Shown: positions 10,501 to 34,603 of the stretch, one piece after another
Layout of the letters: each line of letters opens with the position of its first letter
Position numbering within the stretch: position 1 is the stretch's first letter
Origin: Myxococcales bacterium
Lineage (GTDB): Bacteria; Myxococcota_A; Polyangia; Fen-1088
Reading direction: 5' to 3'
NCBI GenBank assembly: GCA_003136095.1
Contig: PNBO01000355.1
Span: 7,924-46,440 of the forward strand
DNA: 38,517 nt
The notes under the pieces: generated by a model
Seen by the model: only the letters and a program-made list of their open reading frames with translations
The model's database searches: none
What the model was told of the DNA's origin: nothing
Program-made: the position numbers and the translations under genes

Positions 10501-10537
10501 GGCTGGGGTGCGCAGTGTCCCCCGAAAAGCGCGTCAT
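7502..10537 (-). CDS. Soluble hybrid histidine kinase with LacI-type sugar-binding sensor
   Basis: About 1011 residues from ATG 10537 (ATG 10567 is also possible; neither has a clear ribosome site). In order: a Pro/Ala-rich N-terminus; a periplasmic-binding-protein-like domain of the LacI/GalR type at about 50-335 (RLTIAVLIDNANFFEG, PVTGFDDLPLAALGNPPLTT); a helical stretch; a GAF-like region; a coiled coil; a HisKA with AGGVAHDLNNALG (phosphorylated His636); a HATPase with NLLRNAIEAI, VADDGCGIEP and SGSGLGLAIV; and a receiver with LVVDDEG and phospho-Asp941 in VVMDMVLG. There is no signal peptide, membrane helix or DNA-binding helix-turn-helix, so it should sense a small molecule, perhaps a sugar, in the cytoplasm. 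No separate response regulator is adjacent. It is divergent from the OmpA gene across 71 nt. Confidence 0.9.
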   Translation of the reverse strand: MTRFSGDTAHPSPAACADIPENPVTAPTTSPPHAPPAQEARAPTAWAGAKRLTIAVLIDNANFFEGCYEASLREALDAKCRREGHNLLLLYGGPLAAPGPMATADNTIFRALRPGSFDGIIIVSSMLAAFCGPEPVAALVEGLRPTCVCSIGLSLPGVPSLVLDNRAGMEAAVEHLVREHGVRRPVFLAGTPNNPEARARLDAYQEVLARNGIPFDPALVACGYFMPKQGRSAMDGLLAGGIPFDGVVAASDNMALGAIDALRKWGRRVPRDIPVTGFDDLPLAALGNPPLTTVAQPLWQMANLAIDTILAQLAGQPVPDRVVLPSRFIRRRSCGCEFEQRAESHSAAEKNGAPTGCLDRLDALRPKLASALRAHPAAAASISERLVESLRIGPSGQRRAFQKAVGDLLEDMADDTERHAMLQEAIGWLRDELGGLADIELERAFYEGLNLVATSSTTMQMAQRLTLEDNYTTLLDVSEQASVAFDLSSLKQTLLKGLPAAGVRTAFLSCTLETNASELAPVVCLVDGQPIEMPEPSFPASVLVPPSALVLDPRRTFLVFPMAVESQLLGVAAFDYADGVRSYAVFRNEITAVLKSIRLHRELVAKTMLHERSVQERLAATKRMEALSVLAGGVAHDLNNALGPLVALPDLILRELSQLHLDNDTVGKLSADVQIIKTASMRAVQTIKDLLTLGRQGRTVKENIDLARVVKSCFAESALYLLEDKGRNVNIVADYSSEPLAVRGSEAQLARAVGNLLRNAIEAIGGSGQILVKTRHEHLAMPAARYETIPAGNYAVLTVADDGCGIEPSELGRVFEPFFSRKRTGESSGSGLGLAIVHGVVKEHEGFIDVTSVPGQGTTFVLYFPLAPATQAVTKPSTLTSRVPARILVVDDEGIQLRTCQRVLQELGHQVDTMESGLRAYQAFRRAAKTGKSPYDLVVMDMVLGERLDGLQVLELISRLFPEQKAIVVSGHAPGERADLAVNQGLIWLAKPYTVEGLTRAVARVLEGGTS

Positions 10538-10608
10538 CGTCAAGCGGATCGGAGGGCGTGCGTGCATCGGAAGATGCGTCGTACGGCAATTGTGTGTACC
10601 CTGGGCCG

Positions 10609-12333
10609 ATGCTAGGGCAGCGGAGAGTTGCAGCGGTACTGAGCTCGGGCGCGGCGCTCGTGTGGCTTGCGCACGCGGCCTGGGCCCAGCCCACACCCGC
10701 GGGGTTGGAGCGGGGAATCGATCCGGTCAGCTTCAAGCTGAGCCCGTCGATAGGCGCGTATCTGACCACCGCCGGGGCGCGCATGGCCCCCGGCGGGATG
10801 TTGCAAGTCGATCTGGTGGCCGACTTCAACATGACCCTGATGGCCTTGCGGCTGGGCGACGAGCGCCTGGGCAGTCTCATCGAGGATCGCCTGGATCTGC
10901 ACCTCTTGGCGGCCTATGGCTTGCTGAACGGGCTCGAGGTAGCGGTAGACGTTCCCTTCACCCCCTGGCAGGCGAGCGATTTTGGTCGCCTGAATGCGGC
11001 CACTGGCCTCGCCGTTGCCGGGCCGACGTCCTACGGGCTGGGAGACGTGCGTGGCCTGCTGCGGGGTCGCGTGCTGGGCGGTCCGCGATCGCGGGTAGGC
11101 CTCGCCCTGATTGGCGAGGTGCGCGCCCCGAGCGGCGACGACCAGGCCTTTCTGGGTGAACGGGGTTGGTTGCTTTCACCCCGTGCCGTGCTCGATGTGG
11201 CCATCACCACGCGCACGCGCCTGGCCTTCGAGGCGGGCTACCGTTACCGCAGCCAGGCCGGGCGTTTCCTCAACCTCTATGTGGGCGACGAGCTGACCTT
11301 TGCCCTGGCCGGCGCGCGCGAGCTGCCGAGCTTCGGACGGCTGGCGCCCACGGCCTATGTCGAGGTTGTTACTGCCACGCCGGCGCGAGCGCCATTCACG
11401 GTGGACTCGTCGGATGCTCTCAAGACCGCGCTGGAAGCGCTGGTCGGGGTGCGCGCCAGTCGGGGTCCGCACTGGCAGTACCTGCTGGGCCTGGGTCGCG
11501 GTTTTGCCGTCCATGGCGGCGTGGGCCGCGAGGATCTGCGTGTGTTCGCGTCGGTGGGCTGGCGGGGCTTCGTGCCGCCTTCCCGCAACCCCGAGCGCGA
11601 CCGAGACGGCGACGGCGTTCTGGACGTCGATGACCACTGTCCCGATGATCCCGGTCCGGCCGTGTACGACGGCTGCCCGGACCGTGACGGCGACGAGATC
11701 CCCGACATCGAGGACAAATGTCCGCTCGAGCCTGGCCCGGCCGCCAACGATGGCTGCCCCACGAGCAATCTGGTGCACATGCAGAAGGGGGCCATCAACG
11801 TGCTGGGTAACATCACGTTCGACACCAACAAGGACACGCTCAAGCCGGAGTCGTTCCCCGTGCTCGACGCGGTCGTGGGGCTGCTCAAGGAGCACCCCGA
11901 GATCAAGCGCGTCCGTGTCGAGGGACACACCGACAGCCAGGGCAGCCTGGCCCTGAACATGGACCTGAGCCGGCGCCGCGCCCTGACCGTGTTGCGCTAC
12001 CTGGTCGGCAAGGGCATCGACCCGGCCCGGCTAGAGTCCGAGGGCTACGGCCCCACGCGCCCGGAGGCCCCCAACACCACCGTGCTCGGCCGCGCCAAGA
12101 ACCGCCGGGTGGATTTCGCCATCGTCGAGCCCGGGTCTGCCCCCGTGGCGACGCCGGCACCGTCGCCTGCGCCGCCGGCGGCACCGCCGCCTGCGCCGCC
12201 GGCGGCACCGCCGCCTTCGACGACGCCGGCACCGCCGCCTTCGCCGACGCCGGCACCGCCGCCTTCGCCGACCACCCTGGCGCCTGCGCCGCGGCCGGCA
12301 CCGCCGCCTTCGCCGGCGCCGCCCACAAAGTAG
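10609..12333 (+). CDS. OmpA-family outer membrane protein with TSP3 repeats
   Basis: 574 residues. A Sec signal peptide ends AHAAWAQ. About 300 residues of beta-barrel-like sequence follow. Two thrombospondin type-3 calcium-binding repeats come next (DRDGDGVLDVDDHCPDDPGP and a second copy beginning DRDGDEIPDIEDKCP). An OmpA domain then binds peptidoglycan (ITFDTNKDTLKP, VEGHTDSQGS, LNMDLSRRRA, AKNRRVDFAI), and the protein ends with about 60 residues of Pro/Ala. It probably anchors the outer membrane to the cell wall, with the TSP3 segment as a rigid spacer. The start at ATG 10609 is set by the signal peptide; the in-frame extension to 10408 overlaps the divergent kinase. Architecture is typical of myxobacterial outer membrane proteins. 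Confidence 0.92.
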   Translation: MLGQRRVAAVLSSGAALVWLAHAAWAQPTPAGLERGIDPVSFKLSPSIGAYLTTAGARMAPGGMLQVDLVADFNMTLMALRLGDERLGSLIEDRLDLHLLAAYGLLNGLEVAVDVPFTPWQASDFGRLNAATGLAVAGPTSYGLGDVRGLLRGRVLGGPRSRVGLALIGEVRAPSGDDQAFLGERGWLLSPRAVLDVAITTRTRLAFEAGYRYRSQAGRFLNLYVGDELTFALAGARELPSFGRLAPTAYVEVVTATPARAPFTVDSSDALKTALEALVGVRASRGPHWQYLLGLGRGFAVHGGVGREDLRVFASVGWRGFVPPSRNPERDRDGDGVLDVDDHCPDDPGPAVYDGCPDRDGDEIPDIEDKCPLEPGPAANDGCPTSNLVHMQKGAINVLGNITFDTNKDTLKPESFPVLDAVVGLLKEHPEIKRVRVEGHTDSQGSLALNMDLSRRRALTVLRYLVGKGIDPARLESEGYGPTRPEAPNTTVLGRAKNRRVDFAIVEPGSAPVATPAPSPAPPAAPPPAPPAAPPPSTTPAPPPSPTPAPPPSPTTLAPAPRPAPPPSPAPPTK

Positions 12334-18691: not shown

Positions 18692-19162
18692 ATGAGGAAG
18701 AGCCGACCTGGTGCTGGCTTCGTTCTGGTGGTCATTCTTCTAGCAAGCTGCTCGGATGGAGGCGGCGGCCTGACGAGCCCGGGCGCGGGTGGCACTCCAG
18801 GTCTGGGTGGTATGGGCGGCACGGGCGGCACGGGCGCGGGTGGTATCGGTGGGTCGGGCGGAACTGCAGGAACATCCAGCACCATTTGCCGCCCAGCTTC
18901 TCCCTGCCCGACGGGACGGATGGCCTACCAGGACACGATTTGCCCGTGGCCCTCGGGCACCTGCACCCCCAATGGAGATGGCCTCTGTTACCAGCGTTGT
19001 AGCACCGATGCGGATTGCACCGATTCGAAGTTCCCGCTCTGTAGTGGTTCAATCTATCTGTATGGTGGTAGCGATTATGGCCAAACTGTGCATGTCTGCC
19101 AGAGTGTGCAGGACGTAGCCGGATGCGCCTCGCCCCAGGGCATAGACGGAGGCTCCCCATAG
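18692..19162 (+). CDS. Small Cys-rich lipoprotein with Gly linker
   Basis: 156 residues. The signal peptide MRKSRPGAGFVLVVILLASC gives lipid Cys20. A linker of GGTGG-type repeats (about 25-62) is followed by a domain with ten cysteines (STICRPASPCP to CASPQGIDGG), including CYQRCSTDADCTD, a pattern seen in short disulfide-rich surface domains. ATG 18692 follows GGAGG by about 8 nt. I do not recognise a function; a disulfide-stabilised binding module displayed at the surface is an inference. It is monocistronic and converges on the large kinase gene. Confidence 0.78.
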   Translation: MRKSRPGAGFVLVVILLASCSDGGGGLTSPGAGGTPGLGGMGGTGGTGAGGIGGSGGTAGTSSTICRPASPCPTGRMAYQDTICPWPSGTCTPNGDGLCYQRCSTDADCTDSKFPLCSGSIYLYGGSDYGQTVHVCQSVQDVAGCASPQGIDGGSP

Positions 19163-19251
19163 GGTGATATCCCTGGAGAAGAGTCTAGAAACGACCCAAC
19201 CAAGAATCGTCGCATCCCAGCCATGGTCGGCGCGAAGGAAGGGCGGCAGCG

Positions 19252-22200
19252 CTATCTCGTCCGCCGCAGGACCACGAGGCTCCGATCGTCCTGCCGATGT
19301 GGCTCCCATGCTTGCGACGCATCGAGGATGCGACGGCAGATCTCGGCCGCAGGTTCAGCGTGCGCCAGGGCTACGATTTCGATGACCCGCTTGACACCGA
19401 ACTGTTCTCGGTCTGGCCGCCGCGCTTCGATGACGCCGTCCGTGAACAGAACCATCACGTCGCCGTCTCCCAGGTAGCCCTCGCGGCTGCGGGTGGCGAA
19501 TTCGATGCGTTCGGCCGCGCCAATCCAGGTTCCCTGGCTCCGGATCTGCTCGCATTGTCGTGACTGCGCCCGCCAAACCAAGATGTCCTCGTGAGCGCCT
19601 GCGACCAGAAAGCGTCCGTCGGGGAAGAAGCGAAACAGCGATAGGGTCACGTAGTCGTCACGTTGCAAACGGCAGCGGACGTTCTCGTAGAACGAGAGGT
19701 TGAGTAGGCAAAGCAGCCTCGCCGGATCGACGCAGGCATCATTGCGCATGAGCGAGGCCAAGCCGCTCTGGAGCATCAGCATCACAAGGCCGGCGTTGAG
19801 ACCATGACCCGATACGTCGCCGATCCCCAGCCAGAAACCGCCGTCTTCGGTGGGCAGAAGGTCGTAGTAGTCGCCACCGACCTCCGTCGCGGTCTGCATG
19901 GTGGCCGCGATTTCCATCCCTGCCACCGACAATTGTCGGGGAAGAATCGCGGTCTGGATTCTCTGCGCGATGGCTAACTCGCTTTCCAGCTGGGCAACGG
20001 CGGCACGACGTTCCGCCTCGACGAGCTTGGCCTGGCCGTCCTGGATGGTGAGCAGGCTTGCCTCCAGCTTCCGCGTGCGGTCCCGTACCCGCTGTTCCAT
20101 CTCCGCGTAGAGCCCTGCGTTCTCGAGCGAGATCGCCGCCTGCGTGGACAGCGTCTCCAGCAATTCGATCTGGTCGGAGGTGAACACGTCGGCCGTCAGT
20201 CGATTTTCCAGGTAGAGAATACCGATCAGTTCTCCGTGTCGGATCATCGGCATGCATAGGAGCGACTGCGGCTTGTGCTCTGCGAGGTAGGGATCCGAAG
20301 AGAACCGGGTGGGCTCGAAAGGCTGGGTCAGCACCACCTTCTCGCGCGCTTGCCACACGAAGTCGACGATGGTACGCGGAAGCGGCGCGAGGGGTTCGTC
20401 GGATGGCGTGCCGCCGTCGGAAAGTCCCGCGTCGGCTGGGAAGCGGAGCCGTCGGAAGCCATCCGCCTTGGCTCCCGCAGCGCACTCCACCCAAAGCTCG
20501 CCATCGCGAAGCAAGAGCAAGAAGCCTCGCTCGGCGCCGGCCTGCGCGATGGCGATCTCCATCAGCCTCGCCATGAGTTTGGGCAGGACGATTTCCCCGG
20601 AAAGGGCTTGTGTCGCTTTGGCCAGCGCGATGGCGTCGAAGTTGTCGGTCCGCACGGCGCCTGACCACCCTGCGGCGTCGACAGCGGAAACCTGATGACG
20701 ATGGCCCGGCTCGGCGACGCGGACCGCGAGCTGCCTAGCCTTTCGGATAGCACCCCAGCGAGCGTAGGCCGTGCTCGCATTCTCGAAGTAGAGCTCCCTG
20801 GCGATTCGAGCCCAACCCCGCCGCTCGGCGTACCTACCCGCCAACTCGTTGGCCAACGCCTCAAACAGGATCGACCCCGCATCGCGCGCGAGCTTGATCG
20901 CCTGCTCGAACCAGGTGAGCGCTTGGCCGTCGTCGCCACTCGCGGCGCAAAGCTCAGCCGCAACCAGGGCGTGGCGATGGCCGAATGTCTTGGGTGATGC
21001 CGCGGCCCACCGGCGGAGCGTGGCTTCTTCGGCCTTGAGCCCTGCGAGGGCGGCCCCGGCGTTCTCGCCGCCGGCTCGTGCCAGCTCGGCCAGCAGCAAG
21101 GCTTCGAAGAGCTGGGTTTGTGGTCCGTTGAAGTTGCCCGGAACCGAGGGTTTGGAGCGTGCCAGACACGTGGTTGTGCCTTCAAGGTCCCCTGCGAGGA
21201 ATTTCTCAAGAGCCAGGAACAGGAAGTGGCACGAGATGACAAAGGGATTGTGGCTTTCGAGGATCTTGCGTTCGGCTTCGGCGTCGTCGGGTCCCAGGGC
21301 TGCTCCCGCGGTAGCCCGCAGGCGGTCGACAACCCTGCGCAGCGAGCCGACCACATCGCGATTGGTTACGTCTCCCGTGCGCTCGATGAGGTCGGCCGCA
21401 TGGCGAGCGACCTCGACGACGTCCTCGAGGGCGTCCCCCATCTGGAATGCGAAGACCGCCTGCCCCATGGCGCAATAGCAAGCGTAAAGATAGTCACCGG
21501 CATCGAGCGCCGCTTTCCATCCCTTCCGAAGATGTTCCACGCTCTCTAAGATGTCTGCGGACCAGAAGGCGACGAACGCGCCCAGGATGAAGTGAACTGT
21601 GCATGCGACGGCCTGGCTACCGATGGTCTGGTTGAGGCGGGTGGCGATCTGCCCGATCGCGTAGGCCTTTTGCACCTCGCCCCTCACGACGTGGACATGG
21701 GCAAGGCACGCACAAAAATACGCCGACACCGGCGCGTTGCCTTGTCGCAACGAAAGCTGCACGGCGCGTGCGACGATCAAGGTCATCAGGGTTGGGTTGA
21801 TCTGTGCCGCAGCCGGCATCATGCGATGGAGGACGTGAAGCAGGAGCAGGCTCTTCCGGTCGGTCATCGGGGGCAGGTCGAGAAGCGCCGCGACGCCTCG
21901 CGGCCCAAGCGTGGCGGAGATCGCACCAAGCTCCGCGCCGATGGCCGGACCGATGGCTTCGGGGGAATCTGGAAAATCCACGCCCAGGATCCTGGCGGCC
22001 TTGACCCCGCAATCGATCGCCTCGCCCATGCGATTCATGCTGACATGAACCAGGGTTCGCAAGGCCAGAGCCGTCGCCCGGTCGATGTCATCCCTCGCAA
22101 CCGCATCGGCGTGGTCGAGCACGCGAAATGCGTCGTCGAAGCGTCCGGTGGCAATCTCACATTCGGCTCGGCAGATCTGGGCCTGGAAGGCAGTCTCGTA

Positions 22201-24582
22201 GTCGTCCTGCCCAGCGCTATCTGCCAGCAGCTCCGAACAGATATCGAGGTGCCGGATTGCGGTGGCGTGAGCGGCGGCGTCCTTCGCTTTCCGTCCGGCG
22301 GAGAAGTTCAACTTCGCCAAGGCTCGGCGTTCAGCCGGATCGCCCATGTGCCCGATGCCTAGGTTGAGATGGTTGACGATTTCGAAGAGCTGGCGGTCAT
22401 CGGTGGTCGCGCCCTCCGCCGCCAGCTGCATGCGCCCGATGCGAAGGTGCATGTCTTGGCGCTGGCTTTCCGCCAGGGTGGCGTAGGCCGCTTGGTGGAC
22501 GCGATCGTGAAGAAATCGATAGGATGGGTTGTATTCCTCGTCGTGCACATTCGATGCCGCATCGGGGGATGCAATGCCAGCTTCGTGGAGAAACGCCTGG
22601 CCGACATCGACGGGAACCACCAGACCTTCGCGCAGCCCATGCCAAAGCGCACGTCTCACGTCGGCGGCGCTGCGTTCCGCGATCCGCGCCAGGGTTCGCC
22701 GGTCGAACCGGTGTCCGATACAGGCCGCTATGCGCAGAAGGTCCTGCGTCTCTTGCGGCAGCCGCTGCAGGCGTCCAACCATGAAGTCGACGACGTTGTC
22801 GGTCACCATCGCCTCGCCGATCGCTTGCAGGCTGAACCTCCACTCGTGCACGGTCGCATCGAAGGCGATGAGCCCGTCGCGGTAGAGGGTGCTGAGGAAT
22901 TGCCCGAGGAAAAACGGGTTCCCGTGTGTCTTCTCCAGCACCAGCTTGGCCAGTGAACGAACGTGGTGTGCCTTGGTGGCGAAGGTGTCGCCGAGCAACT
23001 GTAGGGTGGCGCCTTCGTCCAATGGTTGGAGCTTGATCTCGGCGATGCTGGTTCCCATCCGGCGCAACTCAGCGACGGCGTCCGTGAGCGGGTGGGTTGG
23101 ATCGACCTCGTTGTCTCGGAGCGCGCCGATGACCAGCAAGTAGCCCCGCTGGGGCGCGGTCAAGAGGAGTTGGATCATGCGCAGCGAGGCGGCGTCGACC
23201 CACTGCAAGTCATCGAGGAAGAACACCAGCGGGTGCTCGGCGGAGGCGAAGACCTGCAGGAACGCCAGGAAGGTTGCTTCGAAGCGGCGTTGCGTCTGCG
23301 CCGGATCCAGCTCCTCGATGGGCGGCTGGGTACCCAGAACCAGGGATACCTCGGGAATGATGTCCGTCACCACCCGGCCGTTGTTGCCGACGGCCTCGAG
23401 AATCTTCTGCCGCCATTGCGCGAATACGGCGGGCGGCTCGGCGAGAATCGAGCGAAGCATCTCGCCACAGCCCTGGATGATGGGGGCATAGGGCATGCGC
23501 CGGCCAATGGGATCGAACTTGCCGGTGGCGAATCGCGCGCCGGTCGCCATCTGTTTGTGAAGCTCGCCCACCAGGACCGACTTACCCACGCCCGAATAGC
23601 CGGAGATGAGGAGCAACTCGGCGGCGCCCTGGCAGGCGCGTTTGAAGGTCGCAAGCAGCGTTGCCAGCTCCTGCTCGCGACCATAGAGCTTCTGCGGGAT
23701 GCGAAGCTCGTCGGAGAAGTCCTGCTGGCCGAGGGTGAACCCGGGAATCGTCCCGGTTTGGGCGAGCAGCTCCTGGCAATGAAGCAGATCGGCCTTGAGA
23801 CCAGAGATATCCTGGTAGCGATCCTCGGCGTTCTTGCCCAGAAGGCGCATGACGATCTCCGACAGGATGCGTGGCCAGTCGCTGCGAATCATGTGCAGCG
23901 GCAGGGGCGAGCGGGCGATATGACTGTGCAGGAGCTCGAGGGGATCGTCGGTGGCAAAGGGCAAGACACCCGTGCCGAGCTCGTACAGGGCCACGCCCAG
24001 CGAATAAAGATCCGTACGCCGATCGACCGAGCGGTTCATGCGTCCGGTCTGCTCCGGCGACATGTACGCCAAGGTTCCTTCCAGTCGCCCCACATGCGGG
24101 CTCCGCCGGTCTTCCAGCGTCAGGCGCGTCGCTGCTCCGAACTCAATCAATGTGACGTGGCCGGCGTCATCGCAGAAGAAGTTCTCGGGTTTGATGTCCT
24201 TGTGGATGACTTGGCGGCGGTGAACGGCCTCGACGGCTTCGGCCATCGCGATGGCAGTGCGCAGGAACGTGGCTAGGCCCAATCGTCCCGGCCCGACGAG
24301 GTAGTCGAGCGACTTGTCCCCGGGATACTCCATCACCAAGGCGACGCTGTCACCCAGGTCTACGATGCCCAGCCCCTTGGCGACCCCAGCCACGTCGAGC
24401 CAGCTGAGAATCGAGGACTCATGCCGTAGACGAGCCAACTGGGTCGTCGTCGGCCTGCCTCCGCGCGGAGACTTCAGCAGAACCGACCGCCCGTCCGCGT
24501 TGCGATAGCCTCGAAACAATGCGGCTTCGGCATTCTCCCGGATCTTGGCGGCAATGGTGAATCCCTGTACTCCCCCAGACAT
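19252..24582 (-). CDS. Ser/Thr kinase - AAA ATPase - GAF - SpoIIE phosphatase signalling protein
   Basis: 1776 residues, no membrane helix. In order: a protein kinase domain (1-270) with Lys37, HKDIKPEN (Asp129, Asn134) and APE-loop-like MSPEQTGRMNRS; a predicted ATPase with Walker A GYSGVGKS (328-335) and Walker B LVFFLDDLQW; a long helical TPR-like region (about 640-1300); a GAF domain (about 1350-1510); a coiled coil (VRDRTRKLEASLLTIQ); and a PP2C/SpoIIE phosphatase with GGDYYDLL, IGDVSGHG, FTDGVIEAR and DDRSLVVL, so its metal-binding acids are present. Close relatives in myxobacteria and cyanobacteria usually end in a histidine kinase instead. The kinase DFG motif reads EFG (Glu147, codon 24142-24144), so kinase activity is in doubt while the phosphatase looks intact. 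A role as a stress or sigma-factor switch is inferred. No ribosome site is clear before ATG 24582. Confidence 0.92.
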   Translation of the reverse strand: MSGGVQGFTIAAKIRENAEAALFRGYRNADGRSVLLKSPRGGRPTTTQLARLRHESSILSWLDVAGVAKGLGIVDLGDSVALVMEYPGDKSLDYLVGPGRLGLATFLRTAIAMAEAVEAVHRRQVIHKDIKPENFFCDDAGHVTLIEFGAATRLTLEDRRSPHVGRLEGTLAYMSPEQTGRMNRSVDRRTDLYSLGVALYELGTGVLPFATDDPLELLHSHIARSPLPLHMIRSDWPRILSEIVMRLLGKNAEDRYQDISGLKADLLHCQELLAQTGTIPGFTLGQQDFSDELRIPQKLYGREQELATLLATFKRACQGAAELLLISGYSGVGKSVLVGELHKQMATGARFATGKFDPIGRRMPYAPIIQGCGEMLRSILAEPPAVFAQWRQKILEAVGNNGRVVTDIIPEVSLVLGTQPPIEELDPAQTQRRFEATFLAFLQVFASAEHPLVFFLDDLQWVDAASLRMIQLLLTAPQRGYLLVIGALRDNEVDPTHPLTDAVAELRRMGTSIAEIKLQPLDEGATLQLLGDTFATKAHHVRSLAKLVLEKTHGNPFFLGQFLSTLYRDGLIAFDATVHEWRFSLQAIGEAMVTDNVVDFMVGRLQRLPQETQDLLRIAACIGHRFDRRTLARIAERSAADVRRALWHGLREGLVVPVDVGQAFLHEAGIASPDAASNVHDEEYNPSYRFLHDRVHQAAYATLAESQRQDMHLRIGRMQLAAEGATTDDRQLFEIVNHLNLGIGHMGDPAERRALAKLNFSAGRKAKDAAAHATAIRHLDICSELLADSAGQDDYETAFQAQICRAECEIATGRFDDAFRVLDHADAVARDDIDRATALALRTLVHVSMNRMGEAIDCGVKAARILGVDFPDSPEAIGPAIGAELGAISATLGPRGVAALLDLPPMTDRKSLLLLHVLHRMMPAAAQINPTLMTLIVARAVQLSLRQGNAPVSAYFCACLAHVHVVRGEVQKAYAIGQIATRLNQTIGSQAVACTVHFILGAFVAFWSADILESVEHLRKGWKAALDAGDYLYACYCAMGQAVFAFQMGDALEDVVEVARHAADLIERTGDVTNRDVVGSLRRVVDRLRATAGAALGPDDAEAERKILESHNPFVISCHFLFLALEKFLAGDLEGTTTCLARSKPSVPGNFNGPQTQLFEALLLAELARAGGENAGAALAGLKAEEATLRRWAAASPKTFGHRHALVAAELCAASGDDGQALTWFEQAIKLARDAGSILFEALANELAGRYAERRGWARIARELYFENASTAYARWGAIRKARQLAVRVAEPGHRHQVSAVDAAGWSGAVRTDNFDAIALAKATQALSGEIVLPKLMARLMEIAIAQAGAERGFLLLLRDGELWVECAAGAKADGFRRLRFPADAGLSDGGTPSDEPLAPLPRTIVDFVWQAREKVVLTQPFEPTRFSSDPYLAEHKPQSLLCMPMIRHGELIGILYLENRLTADVFTSDQIELLETLSTQAAISLENAGLYAEMEQRVRDRTRKLEASLLTIQDGQAKLVEAERRAAVAQLESELAIAQRIQTAILPRQLSVAGMEIAATMQTATEVGGDYYDLLPTEDGGFWLGIGDVSGHGLNAGLVMLMLQSGLASLMRNDACVDPARLLCLLNLSFYENVRCRLQRDDYVTLSLFRFFPDGRFLVAGAHEDILVWRAQSRQCEQIRSQGTWIGAAERIEFATRSREGYLGDGDVMVLFTDGVIEARRPDREQFGVKRVIEIVALAHAEPAAEICRRILDASQAWEPHRQDDRSLVVLRRTR

Positions 24583-24756
24583 GCGCGAATCTTATCGCCA
24601 GTTGGCTGCCATGTCCTCATGCCTCCGTGAGGCGGTGGCGGCATCCCGGGCTCGCCGTCGCTCAGCGTCTGCTCCGATCATGCCCGGATGCAACCCGGGA
24701 GATCGAGCGATGACGACGGGGCGATCGGTGCGTTTCGCAGACTACGCTCTGAGGCT

Positions 24757-25983
24757 ATGCTCTGGCCCATGGACCCTCTTGACAAGAGCGCCTCGTCGCA
24801 ACCGCCATCCGGGGGTGGTGGGGCCCTGCTGCTCGTGAGCTCGGTAGCGGCGTTGGCCGTCGCTCTCCTACTCTGCGCCAGCCTGCTGGCGCAGCAACGT
24901 CCTCTGTGGCTGGCGATCGGGGCTGGCCTCGCCGTTTTTCCCTTCCTGCCGCTCATGTGGCACGGCTCGGCCGAGGCCCGGGACAAGGATCGGGGAACGG
25001 CCTCGCACAGGTCGCGAAGCCGCTTCGCCCTGCGCAGCTTGGCCGTCGCCTTGGTGGTGCTCGCTGTGTCCCTGGGCGACCTAGGACCCAAGCGGGTGGC
25101 CCAGAACCTGCGCGCTCTCGCCGGCCGCATCCAGGCGAAACCAGCGGCAAAGCCGGGGCTGGTTCCGTTTCCGGCACCGGGGGCAGCCACGTCTCACGGG
25201 CTGGAGTCCTTCATCCCGGCCGATGCCACCTTGGTGGTCGGGCTCGCAGGCTCGACGGCCATGGAGCAACTCTTGGCGGCCCATGGCGTAGACACCCGCG
25301 CGAAGCTCGCGGCGCTGGCGACCTGCAAGATCGACCTCACGAGCGCTCGTGTCTTGGTTGCCGCGCGCGGCAGCGGGGCTCACAGAATCGTGGTGCGGGC
25401 TCCGGGAGTCGCCGATGAACGGAATCTCTACTGCCTGGTGGGTGTCATGGGACCAGAGTACCTGCAGCTTCGCAGCGATGGGGGCGCCATGACCGTGCAG
25501 GTGAGTGGCTTTCGCTCGCGTCCTCTGATCTTCCAGCTGCTCGATCCGACGACCCTCATCGCGACCGACGAAGGCTGGCAGGACACCGCGGACCAGAAGC
25601 TCTTTGCGGACGATCTTGCCACTGCCCGAGGACGACTGGCGCTCCCCCTCCTTCGTGTCGATCGCACCACCCCGCTTTGGGTAGTCAGCGTGGACGAGAC
25701 GCCGCAGGGCGCCTGGGATCTCGCTCTCGACTCTCGGCAAGAGGGAAGCCTGTTCAAGCTGCAAGGTAGCTCGACGCCACCGTCGGGGGAAGGGGACCGG
25801 GCGCAGATCTCCGTGCGCGTCCCCCTGGCCTTCGCACGAGCCTTGCCCGAGAGCACCGTGGCGCTGGGGATTCGCGGCGTGGTGGCCGCCATTGCCGCAA
25901 CCGGCGCTTGGCAATCCCCGGCCAAGATCCTGCCCGCTCCGCCGAAACCGACGGGCTCCGGCCATGATGCGGGCGCTCGGTAA
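24757..25983 (+). CDS. Membrane protein of unknown function
   Basis: 408 residues from ATG 24757 (GAGG 3 nt upstream; ATG 24769 and 24688 are alternatives). Three hydrophobic segments lie near the N-terminus: LLLVSSVAALAVALLLCASL, LWLAIGAGLAVFPFLPLMW and LRSLAVALVVLAVSLG. The third is followed by a basic stretch and a soluble domain of about 290 residues that begins GLESFIPADATLVVGLAGS. This domain has alternating strands and helices and three cysteines. The phrase FIPADATLVVGL resembles openings of secreted domains seen in myxobacterial proteins, but I cannot name a family. The gene is divergent from the giant kinase (174 nt between starts) and lies 82 nt before the MotB/OmpA-like gene, which has its own operator-like site. 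Confidence 0.72.
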   Translation: MLWPMDPLDKSASSQPPSGGGGALLLVSSVAALAVALLLCASLLAQQRPLWLAIGAGLAVFPFLPLMWHGSAEARDKDRGTASHRSRSRFALRSLAVALVVLAVSLGDLGPKRVAQNLRALAGRIQAKPAAKPGLVPFPAPGAATSHGLESFIPADATLVVGLAGSTAMEQLLAAHGVDTRAKLAALATCKIDLTSARVLVAARGSGAHRIVVRAPGVADERNLYCLVGVMGPEYLQLRSDGGAMTVQVSGFRSRPLIFQLLDPTTLIATDEGWQDTADQKLFADDLATARGRLALPLLRVDRTTPLWVVSVDETPQGAWDLALDSRQEGSLFKLQGSSTPPSGEGDRAQISVRVPLAFARALPESTVALGIRGVVAAIAATGAWQSPAKILPAPPKPTGSGHDAGAR

Positions 25984-26065: not shown

Positions 26066-27256
26066 ATGCAGCAGCGACACCCCAGCCACCCGACGCTCCC
26101 GACCCCTCAGTCGACGCAACGGCCGTCGGGGGAGAGCCCGGCGCTGCCACCGCCTGCTTCCTCACGGTCGTCTGCGCTTCGCATCCCACCGCCGCCGCCC
26201 CCGCCATCCCTTCGGCCGTCTTCACCTTCGCTGCCGCTCTCCCCGCCGTCCCTTCGGCCGTCTTCACCTTCGCTGCCGCTCTCTCCACCGTCCCTTCGGC
26301 CGTCTTCACCTTCGCTGCCGTTCTCCTCGCCGTCCCTTCGGCCGTCTTCACCTTCCCTGCCGCTCTCCTCGCCTTCGCTCCACGTGCCGGAGCCATTCCT
26401 TTCGCCGGCAGCGCCATCCCGCCCGCGGCATTTCCGGCTGGTGACCGCTCTCCGCGCGGCGCCGCCGTGGGTGCCCTGGCTGGTGGCGGTGCTGGTGACC
26501 GGCGCAGCCCTGTACGGCGTCGTCTGGGGGTACGGCGTGCGCGGTCGCCTGCTCGAGCAGGCCGAGAAGGCCGAGGCAGCGGCGGGCGCGGCCGCGGCGG
26601 CGAGGCGGTCCGTCGAGCGAGAGCTGGCCCCCCTGAAGGCCGACAAGGCCGGCATTGCCAGCGAGAAGGTGTCGCTGGCAGCCGCGCGTGCGTCCCTGAC
26701 CAGGGAGCTGGCACTGCAGGCGGGCCAGCAGGCCGCGCTGAAGGCCGCGGCCGACCGGCTGCGCGAAACGATGAAGCGGGAGATCTCGCAGGGCGACGTG
26801 CACCTCACCGCGAGCAAGGGCCGGCTGGAGGTGGGCCTGGCCGACCGGATCCTGTTCGAGCGGGGCAGCGTGTCGCTCTCGGCACGCGGAGAGGGCGTGC
26901 TGGCTCGCGTGGGCACCGCGCTGGGCGGCACCGACGGCTGGCAGATCCAGGTCGCCGGGCACACCGACAACACGCCGGTCGCCAGCAACCTGCGATCGCG
27001 CTACCCCAGCAACTGGGAGCTGTCGTTGGGGCACAGTGCTAGGGTCGTGCGCTTCCTGCAGGAACGGGCCGTGACCCCGCCCGACCGCCTGGTCGCGAAC
27101 GGCCACGGCGAATACCAGCCGGTAGCCAGCAACCAGCTCGCCGCCGACCGTGCGAAGAACCGCCGTGTCGAGCTCCTGGTGATGCCCGCGCCTCCGTCCG
27201 GGGAGCGGGCAACCGCCGAGCATCAGCCGACCGCGCGGGAGCCGCCTTCCCGGTAG
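26066..27256 (+). CDS. MotB/OmpA-like protein with cytoplasmic Ser-Pro repeat
   Basis: 396 residues with an ideal ribosome site (AAGGAG, 6 nt before ATG). Residues 1-130 are disordered and include four copies of a 14-residue Pro/Ser/Leu unit (SLRPSSPSLPLSPP type). A single membrane helix follows (about 140-158, WLVAVLVTGAALYGVVWGY), then a coiled coil (about 165-235) and an OmpA/MotB peptidoglycan-binding domain: ILFERGSVSLS, QVAGHTDNTPV, NWELSLGHSARVVRFLQ and AKNRRVELLV. With one N-terminal helix the repeat would sit in the cytoplasm and the OmpA domain in the periplasm, as in MotB. No MotA-like gene is adjacent, so it may be a stand-alone cell-wall anchor instead of a stator. Confidence 0.85.
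   Translation: MQQRHPSHPTLPTPQSTQRPSGESPALPPPASSRSSALRIPPPPPPPSLRPSSPSLPLSPPSLRPSSPSLPLSPPSLRPSSPSLPFSSPSLRPSSPSLPLSSPSLHVPEPFLSPAAPSRPRHFRLVTALRAAPPWVPWLVAVLVTGAALYGVVWGYGVRGRLLEQAEKAEAAAGAAAAARRSVERELAPLKADKAGIASEKVSLAAARASLTRELALQAGQQAALKAAADRLRETMKREISQGDVHLTASKGRLEVGLADRILFERGSVSLSARGEGVLARVGTALGGTDGWQIQVAGHTDNTPVASNLRSRYPSNWELSLGHSARVVRFLQERAVTPPDRLVANGHGEYQPVASNQLAADRAKNRRVELLVMPAPPSGERATAEHQPTAREPPSR
26207..26374 (+). repeat. 42-bp tandem repeat, four copies, within the coding region
   Basis: A unit starting TCCCTTCGGCCGTCTTCACC recurs at 26207, 26249, 26291 and 26333, the last copy being the most diverged. The 42-bp period keeps the reading frame and encodes 14 residues rich in Ser, Pro and Leu. 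Few substitutions separate the first three units, which suggests recent expansion. Confidence 0.85.
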
Positions 27257-27384: not shown

Positions 27385-27475
27385 CGGCCAAGGCAAAATG
27401 GCGCTTGAAACGATTTCGTTGTCGGATGTCTTGAGATGCGATGCGGCTGTGCGAAAAGGGCCCTCGAACTTGCTA
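27385..27475 (+). repeat. Dispersed upstream element, copy E2
   Basis: GAGATGCGATGCGGC to CCCTCGAACTT (27433-27472) matches copy E1 at 18625-18661, and TTTCGGCCAAGG (27385-27396) matches TTTCGGCAAGCG there. It ends about 40 nt before the Vgb-like lipoprotein start at 27514, compared with 30 nt for E1. The rest of the 257-nt gap (27257-27513) shows nothing I recognise. Confidence 0.45.
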
Positions 27476-27513
27476 CGCGCCCGCGGTCGCGTACGCGTGA
27501 GTCACCAAAGAAG

Positions 27514-28872
27514 ATGTTGACGAGCGCAAAGATGTTTCTCGGGCCGGGGCTGGCCCTCTTGTCGACCTTGGCCATCGTCGGCTGCTCGGTGGATGTGGGC
27601 AAGTTGCGCGCTCCCACGCCAAGGGACACAGGGGCCACGGCAGACCTTCCATCGATCGAGCACGACGGCGTCGCCTCTGGCGTGGATGCCAACGCGGACC
27701 AGGCAGAGGCGCAGGACGCCAACCCCCTCGCTGACGTGGTGGATAGTCGGATCGACGCCGCAATTCGCGATGGCAGTGTCAGGCAAGACGCGCCACCGTT
27801 GGATACTCCGTTCGGTGACGACGCCTTCGATTGGCCAGGGAATGACGGCCCTGCCGTCGGGATCGACATCGGTGGGATGGATGGAATCGGCGGCGCCGAC
27901 GGCGGTGCCCCAGATGATGTCGCATTCCAGGATGCGCCCGCGGGTTCGGTCTGTGACGATGGCGGGAGCGGCGCGTGTGATGCGTCAGGGGATGACCTAG
28001 CTCGTGAGGACGTCGCGATTGACACGGAAGGTGACTCGGCCGGCGATGGGCCGGTCGTCACGGACGGAAAGCCGGACCTCATCCGCGACAGCCCGACTGC
28101 AATCGACAGTGTTGTTCACACCGTGAAGGAGTTTGGGGTTCTCACCACGACGGGCCAACCTTGGGGAATTGCCGCGGGTCCGGATGGCAACCTGTGGTTC
28201 ACGGAGCGCAGTAGCAACAAGATCGGCCGTATGACACCCACGGGCACGGTCACCGAATACTCGCTACCGGTGGCGGGCGGATATCCCGCGGGCATCGTCG
28301 CCGGGCCGGACGGCAATCTCTGGTTCACGGAATACAGCGGCAACAAGATCGGCCGCGCCACCACCAGCGGGACGATCGCCGAGTACACGATTCCCTCCTC
28401 GGGCGCCGGGCCCACGGGCATCACGGCGGGGCCGGACCACAATCTCTGGTTCACCGAGCTCGGCGCCAACCAGATCGGGCGCATCACGGTCACGGGCACC
28501 GTCACCGAGTACTCGGTGACGACCCCGGGCAGCAGCCCCGCGCGCATCGTGGCGGGCCCCGACGGCAATCTCTGGTTCACAGAGCACAAGAGCGACCACA
28601 TCGGCCGCATCACCCCGACGGGAACGGTCACCGAGTTCCCCATCCCCACCGCGACCGGCAATCCCTACGGCCTGGCGGCGGGCCCCGACGGCAATCTCTG
28701 GTTCACCGAATACACCGCCAACCAGATCGGCCGCATCACCCTGGATGGGACGGTCATCGAGCTCGCAATCCCGACCGCGAGCAGCGCCTCCTCCGCCATC
28801 GTGGCCGGTCCCGACGGCAACCTGTGGTTCACGGAATCGGGCCCGGGCAAGCTCGGCCGGATCAATCCCTAG
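27514..28872 (+). CDS. Lipoprotein with Vgb-like six-blade propeller
   Basis: 452 residues. The signal peptide ends LAIVGCSVDVGK (lipid Cys24). An Asp/Gly-rich linker of about 170 residues follows. The C-terminal domain has six repeats of 42 residues, each with GPDGNLWFTE and then NKIGRIT, GTVTEY and P. The first repeat is preceded by VKEFGVL, which supplies the strand missing from repeat six, so the ring closes with six blades. The repeat is that of virginiamycin B lyase (Vgb), but Vgb has seven blades and this protein is a surface lipoprotein. I would not infer antibiotic lyase activity; a binding role is as likely. ATG 27514 with AAAGAAG upstream is preferred over an in-frame ATG at 27436. 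The segment just after the lipid cysteine is shared with the LamG lipoprotein at 3755. Confidence 0.85.
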   Translation: MLTSAKMFLGPGLALLSTLAIVGCSVDVGKLRAPTPRDTGATADLPSIEHDGVASGVDANADQAEAQDANPLADVVDSRIDAAIRDGSVRQDAPPLDTPFGDDAFDWPGNDGPAVGIDIGGMDGIGGADGGAPDDVAFQDAPAGSVCDDGGSGACDASGDDLAREDVAIDTEGDSAGDGPVVTDGKPDLIRDSPTAIDSVVHTVKEFGVLTTTGQPWGIAAGPDGNLWFTERSSNKIGRMTPTGTVTEYSLPVAGGYPAGIVAGPDGNLWFTEYSGNKIGRATTSGTIAEYTIPSSGAGPTGITAGPDHNLWFTELGANQIGRITVTGTVTEYSVTTPGSSPARIVAGPDGNLWFTEHKSDHIGRITPTGTVTEFPIPTATGNPYGLAAGPDGNLWFTEYTANQIGRITLDGTVIELAIPTASSASSAIVAGPDGNLWFTESGPGKLGRINP

Positions 28873-32114: not shown

Positions 32115-32194
32115 CGGCCCTGGCGCATGCGTCAGATCGGCCCACTTGGGGCAGCGAAGTTGCGGGACCGGTCGGTTTGGCGAACACGCAGCGC

Positions 32195-32460
32195 CACAGC
32201 TCTGGAGTTTTCGCGCAGACAGTGGGGCTCTGCTCACTGGCACCTGGCGAGGAGCACGCTGACCGTGTTCAAGAAGCTGTTGCAAGACTGCCTCCCAGCG
32301 CCGTTCCCGGCGCTCGAACGGACCGTAGGCCGCGAAGACCTCGGTTCTGCACGACTCGGCGTCCGACTGCGCATCCGCGGGCTCCTGCGGATGCTGCTTG
32401 CTGCCGGCGCATGACTGGATTCACGCTCCAGTGGGATTGTGGGCTGCCGGCGATGGGGTC
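32195..32460 (+). repeat. Dispersed upstream element, copy I
   Basis: The 3' box (32405-32460) shares an exact 13-mer, GGCGCATGACTGG (32406-32418), with copy B, and GGCGATGG (32449-32456), though about 7 nt are deleted between them. GGCGATGG ends 102 nt before the start at 32558, compared with 107 and 108 nt for copies B and A. A weak 5' box (GGAGTTTTCGCGCAGACAGT, 32205-32224) precedes it. This explains about half of the 443-nt gap (32115-32557); the remainder shows no gene. Confidence 0.55.
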
Positions 32461-32557
32461 GGCAGGGGATGGAGGCACGTTGCTGGGAAGCGATGCAATT
32501 CCGTCCCACGCCGATGCCTGCGCAGCAGGCGGCCTGGACGGAATCCGACGGAGTACA

Positions 32558-34603
32558 ATGAAGGGCACCATGACCAGGAGCGCGAGGCTAGTCGTTTGCG
32601 CGGCGGTTGCGCTCGCGGTGGCTGGCTGCGGGTCGCACGCGATCTCGGTGCGCGTGGATGCTCGGCAGGCGGATGCGCCAGTGGCCATGGTCCCTGACAG
32701 CGCAAGCGGAGACTCGGCAAGCAGCGGCGCAGACGGTGGACATGTCATCCCGGTCGCGCTCTCGGCGGGCTTGTTCTCCACCTGCGCCCTGCTGTCGAAC
32801 GGGTCGGTGAGATGCTGGGGGACCAACACCTACGGCCAACTCGGGAACGGGACGCGGATCGGCTCGACCACGCCCGTCGTGGTGCAGGGATTGAACGACG
32901 CCGTCGCGCTCTCGGCGTCGGATGGGTATCACGCCTGCGCGGTGCGGGCCGACGGCACGGCGCAATGCTGGGGGGGCAACGGCTACGGAGCTCTTGGCGA
33001 TGGCACCACGATGGATTCTTCCTCGATCAAGACGGTGTCGAACCTGCGCGACATCGCGAACATCAGCGCCGGCGCCAATGACACCTGCGCCGTGCTCGGC
33101 GATGGGACCGTCTACTGCTGGGGCATGACGCCGGGCGGGGGAAGCTCCGAGACGCCGACGCGGCGGCCGCTCTCGGGCGTCGTCTCGATCCAGGCGGGCC
33201 AGAGCAACATCTGCGCGCTGCTCGGCGATGCCACCGTCGAGTGCTGGGGGGACAATACGGCTGGCCAGATTGGCAACGGCACCTACGCCGACGCCGTGCA
33301 CCCGGTGGTGACGCCCACGGCGGTGCAGGGGTTGAGTCAAGTCGTCGCCCTCGCCGCCGGCGCCGAGGGCGAGTGTGCCGTCCTGGCGGATGGCACGGCC
33401 GCCTGCTGGGGCGCCAACGACCATGGTCAGCTCGGCAACGGCACGGTGTCAAGCGGCCCACCCTACGGTAGCTCGACGCCCGTGGCGGTCTTCGGCTTGA
33501 CCAACGTGGTCGCGATCACCACGGCCGGCTCCTATGCCTGCGCGCTGCTCGCCGACGGCAGCCTGCGTTGCTGGGGCGACAACGAAGACGGTACCCTGGG
33601 CAATGGCACGACACTGGACTCCACATTGCCGGTCGCAGTTCCGGGCTTGACCGACATCGTATCGGTCTCGGCCGGCACCGAGCATGCCTGCGCGCTGGCG
33701 GCGGATGGAGCCATCTGGTGCTGGGGACTCAACAGCCACGGCCAGCTGGGCCATGCGCCCACCAACGATTCGTGCCACGGTGCTGTGTGCTCGATGACTC
33801 CGGTGCGGGTCGACTGGTCGGTGGACGCGGACGCGGGATTGGACAGCACGTTCCCGCCGGCGCGCGACGCCGCCTGGGAAAGCCTGCCGTCCAGCGCCGA
33901 TGGCGGCGTGCCCTGCCGGCTCGACTCGGATTGCGCGAACTTAGGCGGGACGTTCTGTCAGAAGGATGCGTGCGACCCTTCGGTCATCGGGGTCTGCGCG
34001 ATGATTCCCGACTACTGCCAGCTCGACACCGGCTTCGTGTGCGGCTGCGACGGCCAGACCTACGTCTATGCGTGCCTGGCCCACGGCGGAGCGGTTAACA
34101 TCGCATCCCAGGGCCCGTGTCCGCTGCCCGACGGCGGAGCCCCCTGCGCGAGCAACGCGGACTGCGGCACCGGGCTCTACTGCAAAAAGGAGTCTTGCGG
34201 GGCGCCGACCGGCCTCTGCACGGGCGAGCCGGATTTCATGGTCTGCTTCGTCGAATCGAGGGACGGTGGCCAGTCGGCCTGCGGCTGCGATCACCAGACC
34301 TACCTCGATGCGTGCGAGGCCGCCTCCTACGGGATCAACGTCGATAGCGAGGGAGCTTGTCCCCCACTGCCCTCGGGGCCTTGCACCCTACCGGCGGATT
34401 GCGGTGACCCAAGCTACGCGGCGCTGGTGTTCTGCATGCCTACCAGCTGTGGTGCGGCCGCCGGGAGCTGTACGGCCATCCCCGGTGTCTGCCCGTCCCT
34501 CTTCGAGCCAGTCTGCGGTTGCGACGGTCGCATGTACTCCAACGCGTGCGTCGCCGCGCGTGCGCGGGTCGGCTGGTATGGTACCGACGGGGGTTGCCCC
34601 TAG
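32558..34603 (+). CDS. RCC1-repeat and Kazal-like surface lipoprotein
   Basis: 681 residues. The signal peptide ends AVAGCGS (lipid Cys24). Residues about 65-420 hold seven RCC1-type repeats of the form SAG-x-x-x-x-CALL-x-DG-x-x-x-CWG then G-x-LGNGT, which should form a seven-bladed propeller; each blade has a conserved Cys pair. The C-terminal third has three Cys-rich modules with VCGCDGQTYVYACLA, ACGCDHQTYLDACEA and VCGCDGRMYSNACVA, the core of Kazal-type serine protease inhibitors. The combination suggests a binding propeller displayed with protease-inhibitor-like domains; inhibitory activity is untested. ATG 32558 has GGAG 5 nt upstream; ATG 32570 (AAGGG upstream) is also possible. Confidence 0.88.
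   Translation: MKGTMTRSARLVVCAAVALAVAGCGSHAISVRVDARQADAPVAMVPDSASGDSASSGADGGHVIPVALSAGLFSTCALLSNGSVRCWGTNTYGQLGNGTRIGSTTPVVVQGLNDAVALSASDGYHACAVRADGTAQCWGGNGYGALGDGTTMDSSSIKTVSNLRDIANISAGANDTCAVLGDGTVYCWGMTPGGGSSETPTRRPLSGVVSIQAGQSNICALLGDATVECWGDNTAGQIGNGTYADAVHPVVTPTAVQGLSQVVALAAGAEGECAVLADGTAACWGANDHGQLGNGTVSSGPPYGSSTPVAVFGLTNVVAITTAGSYACALLADGSLRCWGDNEDGTLGNGTTLDSTLPVAVPGLTDIVSVSAGTEHACALAADGAIWCWGLNSHGQLGHAPTNDSCHGAVCSMTPVRVDWSVDADAGLDSTFPPARDAAWESLPSSADGGVPCRLDSDCANLGGTFCQKDACDPSVIGVCAMIPDYCQLDTGFVCGCDGQTYVYACLAHGGAVNIASQGPCPLPDGGAPCASNADCGTGLYCKKESCGAPTGLCTGEPDFMVCFVESRDGGQSACGCDHQTYLDACEAASYGINVDSEGACPPLPSGPCTLPADCGDPSYAALVFCMPTSCGAAAGSCTAIPGVCPSLFEPVCGCDGRMYSNACVAARARVGWYGTDGGCP

Follow-up and report, generated by a model that had tools for sequence, protein, structure and literature searches.

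A putative regulatory pseudokinase domain with EFG in place of DFG in a SpoIIE-output signaling protein of a Myxococcales bacterium

We analyzed a stretch of 38,517 nucleotides from a Myxococcales bacterium (GenBank assembly GCA_003136095.1, contig PNBO01000355.1, positions 7,924 to 46,440 of the forward strand), which we refer to as the window. It carries a gene for a protein of 1776 amino acids that joins an N-terminal kinase-like domain to an AAA ATPase, a GAF domain and a C-terminal SpoIIE phosphatase domain. The DFG aspartate of kinases chelates Mg, and in the window protein this residue is replaced by a glutamate (Glu147), giving the motif EFG. We consider it probable that this domain is a retained and folded regulatory pseudokinase, or a very weak kinase, acting on the ATPase and phosphatase to which it is fused. 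EFG is one instance of a pattern spread over the class, and this class-wide erosion of catalytic residues is of more interest than EFG by itself. Pseudokinases are defined in sequence terms by a missing beta-3 Lys, HRD Asp or DFG Asp (PMC12599244); judged by its sequence, the window protein is a pseudokinase under this definition, its DFG Asp being Glu147.

The initial annotation had read Glu147 from a GAG codon (Table 1) and had listed Lys37, the HKD Asp129 and Asn134 as retained. Both readings were exact: the GAG codon lies in LIEFG on the minus strand, and the codons of the three other residues (AAG, GAC and AAC) were confirmed along with that of Glu55. The source assembly is fragmented into 456 contigs, with a completeness of 84.75% and a contamination of 6.73%, which could raise the suspicion of a sequencing or assembly error. 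This explanation is extremely improbable, and we rejected it because the same GAG codon, again within LIEFG, is found in a congeneric species: the orthologue L205 comes from a separate assembly (genome G002) and is 79% identical over its full length, such that the codon is shared by proteins differing at 21% of their residues. No match was obtained at our strict cut-off in G001, the remaining genome of the three from this genus, which is 74% complete. The next relatives, in genomes G009 (51%) and G012 (42%), keep DFG and present HKDIKPHHF and HKDVKPHHF, respectively, with His replacing Asn134.

Selection on each domain was estimated from the window protein and L205 with a Nei-Gojobori script, as the ratio of nonsynonymous to synonymous divergence (omega). 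Omega was 0.19 for the kinase, AAA and SpoIIE domains alike, 0.20 for the middle region and 0.29 for the GAF domain. Synonymous divergence (dS) was about 0.61 over the whole gene, and the codon of Glu147 was unchanged. The kinase domain contains no stops or frame breaks, and its identity between the two proteins is 82% vs 79% for the whole protein. Because its omega equals that of the ATPase and phosphatase domains, we conclude that the kinase domain has been maintained; it is under purifying selection. Decay of the whole domain was also considered, and the per-domain selection gives it no support.

The Pfam Pkinase family matches the domain with 99.4 bits (cut-off 31.7), which indicates a genuine kinase-type domain and excludes a chance motif. 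An AlphaFold2 model of the domain, computed with 76 relatives, reached a mean predicted local distance difference test score (pLDDT) of 88.6 and a predicted template modeling score (pTM) of 0.89. The model presents the N-lobe strands, alpha-C and the C-lobe helices, and pLDDT falls below 50 at residues 1-4 and over a portion (158-165) of the activation loop. All ten top-ranked Foldseek matches were PknB or Stk1 structures, with query template modeling scores (TMq) of 0.75-0.79, and the nearest solved structures by sequence were also PknB, across residues 66-268 or so. The kinase domain is thus predicted with good confidence to fold like PknB.

We searched 317 genomes of the class with residues 1-640 of the window protein (E ≤ 1e-60, three candidates scored per genome) and found a match in 107 of them. 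From among the 150 matches listed, 138 were aligned together with the window protein to give 139 rows: 135 had open frames of 1300 aa or longer and three came from G002, G009 and G012, while 11 rows with shorter frames were left out. These rows are related to one another, and the counts that follow are not independent. Column 147 was occupied by Asp in 116 rows, Gly in 14, Asn in three, Ala, His and Ser in one each and a gap in one; Glu was present in only two rows, the window protein and L205. Catalytic residues were also replaced in column 129 (126 Asp, 6 Asn, 4 His, 1 Gly, 1 Ala, 1 gap), column 134 (124 Asn, 12 His, 2 Ser, 1 gap) and column 37 (124 Lys, 6 Arg, 2 Leu, 1 His, 1 Val, 5 gaps). 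Overall, about a quarter of the gap-free rows (37 of 134) lacked at least one of the four residues K/D/N/D, and 25 of the 134 were without one of the three classical residues. A more fully altered site was observed in a clade of four rows (L123, L134, L135 and L139) with His for the catalytic Asp, Arg or His for the beta-3 Lys, and GFG.

Parsimony on a tree of the AAA region required at least 15 state changes at column 147 and at least 18 for the state "all four canonical or not"; 50 of the 136 inner branches of this tree have support under 80, and these counts do not separate loss from gain. Walker A was intact in all 139 rows, including the 37 non-canonical ones. Nine residues were identical in every row (P176, Q178, G180, R189, D191, Y193, G196, K250 and R255) and E177 was conserved at 99.3%, whereas the catalytic columns ranked lower in conservation among the 277 columns: K37 was 36th, D129 41st, N134 43rd, D147 55th and G149 67th. 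This indicates that parts of the C-lobe are guarded more strictly than the catalytic site. These patterns suggest that the kinase domain may often have given up its enzymatic role in this class for one as a sensor or scaffold. We also asked whether SpoIIE output is linked to lost catalysis: 9 of 21 gap-free rows with SpoIIE were non-canonical vs 28 of 113 others, and nothing was drawn from this difference because all nine rows belong to one clade.

Frequent change at catalytic positions might also be expected from drift, with a dispensable kinase domain in which Glu147 would be an early step of decay. The changes of canonical state over the four catalytic columns are compatible with this scenario, as are rows such as L222 and L170 in which several positions depart together. 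We nevertheless regard drift as very unlikely, given the omega, uninterrupted frame and identity reported above for the window protein and L205, the C-lobe residues identical in all rows and the fold predicted to be intact.

The history of the two metal ligands, residues 134 and 147, was traced in a 37-row tree built without the motif columns, whose bootstrap had not fully settled and which has many weak branches. The window protein, L205 and L206 were grouped (100/99) inside a clade of 10 proteins with SpoIIE output (97/95). Kinase data were available for nine rows of this clade. Seven of them present His134, and Asn134 combined with Glu147 was found solely in the window protein and L205. The DFG Asp is kept in six of the seven His134 rows; the seventh, L126, has Gly there and has lost Asp129 too. 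None of the nine rows therefore has both metal ligands intact and, since seven of nine carry His134, both ligands have been in flux.

His134 was observed in L206, L207, L085, L101, L103, L110 and L126 of this clade and in a separate clade formed by L151, L174 and L185. All of these rows except L126 continue with Phe, and Phe135 was present in 11 rows, namely these nine His134 rows plus the window protein and L205. The presence in the window protein and L205 of a Phe135 otherwise confined to His134 rows hints that Asn134 may have been regained in their lineage. A clean reversion from His134 to Asn was rejected as a conclusion, as parsimony ties with two changes either way. The inference of weak or altered transfer and of a sensor or scaffold role made by the initial annotation is partly supported, with two amendments: the retained Asn134 is more than a leftover, and EFG belongs to a pattern that extends beyond this protein.

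The search was also extended outside the class. Five of 40 rows from other classes of the phylum, hand-picked from the upper part of the match list, were non-canonical. One locus from another class, L327 (G462:C209:13321-15375), presents a second Glu at column 147 together with HKA for HKD (HKALTPTN...VVEFG); that its Glu accompanies a lost catalytic base would favor a pseudokinase reading of EFG. No non-canonical domain was found among 17 in one Nostoc genome or among three further loci. Two were found among the best 80 of 578 loci from a contig search, one of them from a Sorangium, which is in the same class as the window; these 80 loci were chosen by similarity, lean towards proteins resembling the query profile and are mostly cyanobacterial. 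The low counts among cyanobacterial loci agree with a 2007 survey, in which the DFG Asp was present in 97.2% of a set of 286 cyanobacterial kinases (PMC2176072). Within the sampling made, erosion thus appears strongest in the window's class. Finally, the window's own genome returned 59 matches, and 23 of the 58 others (L003-L025) served as a control; they contained 27 kinase-domain hits, 25 of them distinct as two loci overlap. All 27 hits present the His, Asp129, Asn134 and DFG, and Lys37 was found in all 24 that cover its column, indicating that an altered metal site is no habit of this genome.

EFG has a known precedent in the titin kinase of vertebrates, where Glu for the Asp of DFG drastically reduces or inactivates transfer (PMC12862963, PMC4042850). 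Weak or altered phosphotransfer would, by this analogy, be the best inference from EFG in the window protein. Titin kinase combines EFG with a second deviation, and its catalysis is undetectable (PMC4042850); the same source ascribes the inactivity to M34 and E147 jointly, and why its Glu is conserved is described as unclear (PMC12862963). Like titin kinase, the window protein is a giant protein that keeps the Lys and the catalytic Asp and has a large first residue in the AxK motif (Leu35-Leu36-Lys37). Unlike titin kinase, it is bacterial and carries ATPase and phosphatase domains, and the homology is no closer than the kinase fold. The bulky AxK residue does not discriminate because V, I or L occupies column 35 in 106 of the 139 class rows; we therefore treat this as a resemblance to titin kinase and not as membership.

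A second comparison is STRAD-alpha, whose His200 helps to replace the metal ion and allows Mg-independent ATP binding (PMC2686265, PMC4718504). His at the place of Asn134 in the clade of the window protein recalls this residue, but the Lys, HRD Asp and DFG are also lost in STRAD-alpha, and the window protein itself has Asn. We offer, as a tentative and rather doubtful extension, that the kinase fold of the SpoIIE-output clade could have been rebuilt to sense nucleotides, its metal site being changed to His134/Asp147 (STRAD-like) or, as in this genus, to Asn134/Glu147. It would bind ATP or another nucleotide with an altered metal need, perform no phosphotransfer and gate the ATPase and phosphatase in cis, and the class would have made a regulator of this enzyme domain on many independent occasions.

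Bacterial pseudokinases make up as much as 67% of some bacterial kinomes (PMC12599244), and kinase-like sequences devoid of the catalytic Asp had already been tabulated in an earlier survey (PMC1262709). Other bacterial proteins can have Glu at the DFG position, since the Nocardia protein U5EIF8 (family Act1) has EIG in place of DFG (PMC12599244, Table 1). The families of this 2025 review (ActPs1-3, GLW, CP1, DYD, DLHK and others) resemble the window protein in having a bacterial Ser/Thr kinase fold with altered catalytic residues. They differ in architecture: the terms AAA, SpoIIE, STAND and Myxococc have no occurrence in the review, which does not describe the present arrangement under those words. 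We found no paper on this erosion in this group in the open-licence literature.

The main rival to a regulatory pseudokinase is a domain that is still catalytically active: Glu147 and Asn134 would form an alternative, re-tuned metal site, possibly for one metal or for manganese, and a common target would be phosphorylated and dephosphorylated by the same protein. Lys37, Glu55, Asp129, Asn134 and the motif Gly are all present, the kinase domain has the omega of the ATPase and phosphatase, and the association of Asn134 with Glu147 in two rows of a clade whose other seven rows have His134 looks like a compensatory pair. We consider this rival unlikely: transfer is reported to fall drastically when Glu replaces the DFG Asp (PMC12862963), the group is often devoid of catalytic residues in this class, and the second EFG row, L327, is without the catalytic base.

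Several observations nonetheless weigh against a regulatory pseudokinase. The window protein still has three of the four canonical residues, and two substitutions within a single lineage could make a functional metal site. One further species with Glu147 cannot demonstrate long-term fixation. All four residues are kept in 97 of the 134 gap-free class rows, which are thus canonical, and most relatives examined look competent. The inactivity of titin kinase is ascribed to two residues, and the Leu35 of the window protein is bulky too, yet such residues also stand in possibly active rows. Finally, STAS proteins are the classical substrate partners of SpoIIE phosphatases, and the expected substrate is not apparent: Pfam STAS had no match in the window's own genome (G000, 84.75% complete) although SpoIIE-type domains are present, whereas 10 of 14 control genomes gave matches.

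A sensor or scaffold role for the kinase domain fits both its omega, equal to that of the other domains, and relatives that lose K/D/N/D while keeping the C-lobe and Walker A. In such a mechanism, the kinase fold would be kept with an altered magnesium site (Asn134/Glu147), and phosphate transfer would be very poor or nil. The domain might weakly bind a nucleotide or use its conserved C-lobe to bind a partner protein, and its state would be passed to the intact AAA ATPase switch, with signal presumably flowing in this direction. The AAA switch and the GAF ligand sensor would together set how active the C-terminal phosphatase is. Little work has been done on bacterial pseudokinases, and this class may offer many natural replicates, i.e., state changes with fold and ATPase kept, in which to study the role of a kinase fold after a probable loss of catalysis; canonical relatives of the same class, such as the SpoIIE-output protein L104, can serve as controls. 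The EFG pair formed by the window protein and L205 provides a bacterial parallel to titin kinase.

The remaining domains carry recognizable functional motifs. AAA_16 presents Walker A (GYSGVGKS at 328) and a Walker B-like motif (FFLDDLQW at 454). The long middle region may consist of helical repeats. The acidic motifs of SpoIIE, GGDYYD, GDVSGHG, LFTDG and QDDRS, which we take to be the metal-binding motifs of the SpoIIE/PPM phosphatase, are all found; GGDYYD starts at residue 1569, ahead of the Pfam span, and is present in all 10 rows of the SpoIIE-output clade.

This architecture is best compared with HstK and the cbSTKIII family, dual kinases of cyanobacteria which combine a KD-type N-terminal kinase, at least one GAF domain and a C-terminal histidine kinase (PMC2176072). 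The window protein likewise has an N-terminal HKD-type kinase, with a GAF domain placed between it and the C-terminal domain, but it ends in SpoIIE rather than a histidine kinase and has EFG rather than DFG. Pfam detected no HisKA or HATPase match in the window protein (E ≤ 0.001). Over the kinase and AAA domains (about 640 residues), cyanobacterial loci align with it and are 40-45% identical; we take them for the cbSTKIII family because of this alignment and because they present the DFG Gly-to-Ser and alpha-C Glu-to-Gln changes that the survey gives for cbSTKIII (PMC2176072). A Bradyrhizobium plasmid hit is annotated by NCBI as "trifunctional serine/threonine-protein kinase/ATP-binding ...". 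We did not file the window protein as cbSTKIII or a dual kinase since the C-terminal histidine kinase is absent. From its domains and alignments, it is a SpoIIE-output relative of HstK-type giant signaling proteins, and the kinase/AAA/GAF/SpoIIE architecture is a SpoIIE variant of these known proteins. SpoIIE-like phosphatases, some fused to HAMP, FHA or GAF, are also described in Sorangium, but no kinase/AAA/GAF/SpoIIE fusion was seen in the available text of that study (PMC2887360).

Table 1. Position of the gene, its domains and the residues discussed, in window coordinates.
Feature	Coordinates	Strand	Remarks
Gene, 1776-aa kinase-like / AAA ATPase / GAF / SpoIIE protein	19252..24582	-	Single uninterrupted frame from ATG; Pfam domains
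Kinase-like domain, residues about 8-285	23728..24561	-	Pfam Pkinase 22-224; AlphaFold2; Foldseek
Lys37 (AAG; VLLK; beta-3 lysine)	24472..24474	-	
Glu55 (GAG; alpha-C glutamate)	24418..24420	-	Glu in 131/139 aligned class rows
Asp129 (GAC; HKD, catalytic base; within HKDIKPEN 127-134)	24196..24198	-	
Asn134 (AAC; second metal ligand), then Phe135	24181..24183	-	
Glu147 (GAG), replaces the DFG aspartate; residues 145-149 = L-I-E-F-G	24142..24144	-	
Residues 176-184 PEQTGRMNR, C-lobe signature of the group	24031..24057	-	
AAA_16 ATPase, residues 298-485	23128..23691	-	Pfam 135 bits
Middle region, residues 486-1330	20593..23127	-	No Pfam family at E ≤ 0.001
GAF domain, residues 1336-1486	20125..20577	-	Pfam 57.8 bits
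SpoIIE phosphatase domain, residues 1580-1774	19261..19845	-	Pfam 120.2 bits

The gene seems to stand alone, since DNA similarity to G002 starts and ends with it: window positions 19250-24615 are 80.6% identical in G002 and, over a 19-kb stretch of that genome (reaching about 10.7 kb ahead of the gene and 2.9 kb past it), nothing but the gene and one 198-column piece shows similarity. Eight neighboring window proteins had no tblastn match (E ≤ 1e-4) in L205, L206 or L207. An operon partner was looked for and none was seen, as similarity to G002 ends with the gene and the neighbors lack such matches. A search for related loci with the single protein returned five pattern matches and no relative. 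The adjacent frames (18732-19160 and 24688-25983) had no Pfam hit, and neighbors further away match a Pel9A-like beta-helix, OmpA and a propeller of the virginiamycin-B-lyase type. The OmpA-family protein (26066-27256) has an N-terminal proline/serine-rich repeat region (RPSSPSLPLS...), and the propeller match (27436-28872) scores 325.9 bits for the virginiamycin-B-lyase family, which does not imply the enzyme function. The frame at 32177-34603 contains several RCC1 repeats and a C-terminal Kazal-type match of 24.5 bits (cut-off 21). Finally, positions 7502-10696 encode a protein of 1064 aa that resembles a hybrid histidine kinase, with periplasmic-binding-protein-like, HATPase and receiver domains.

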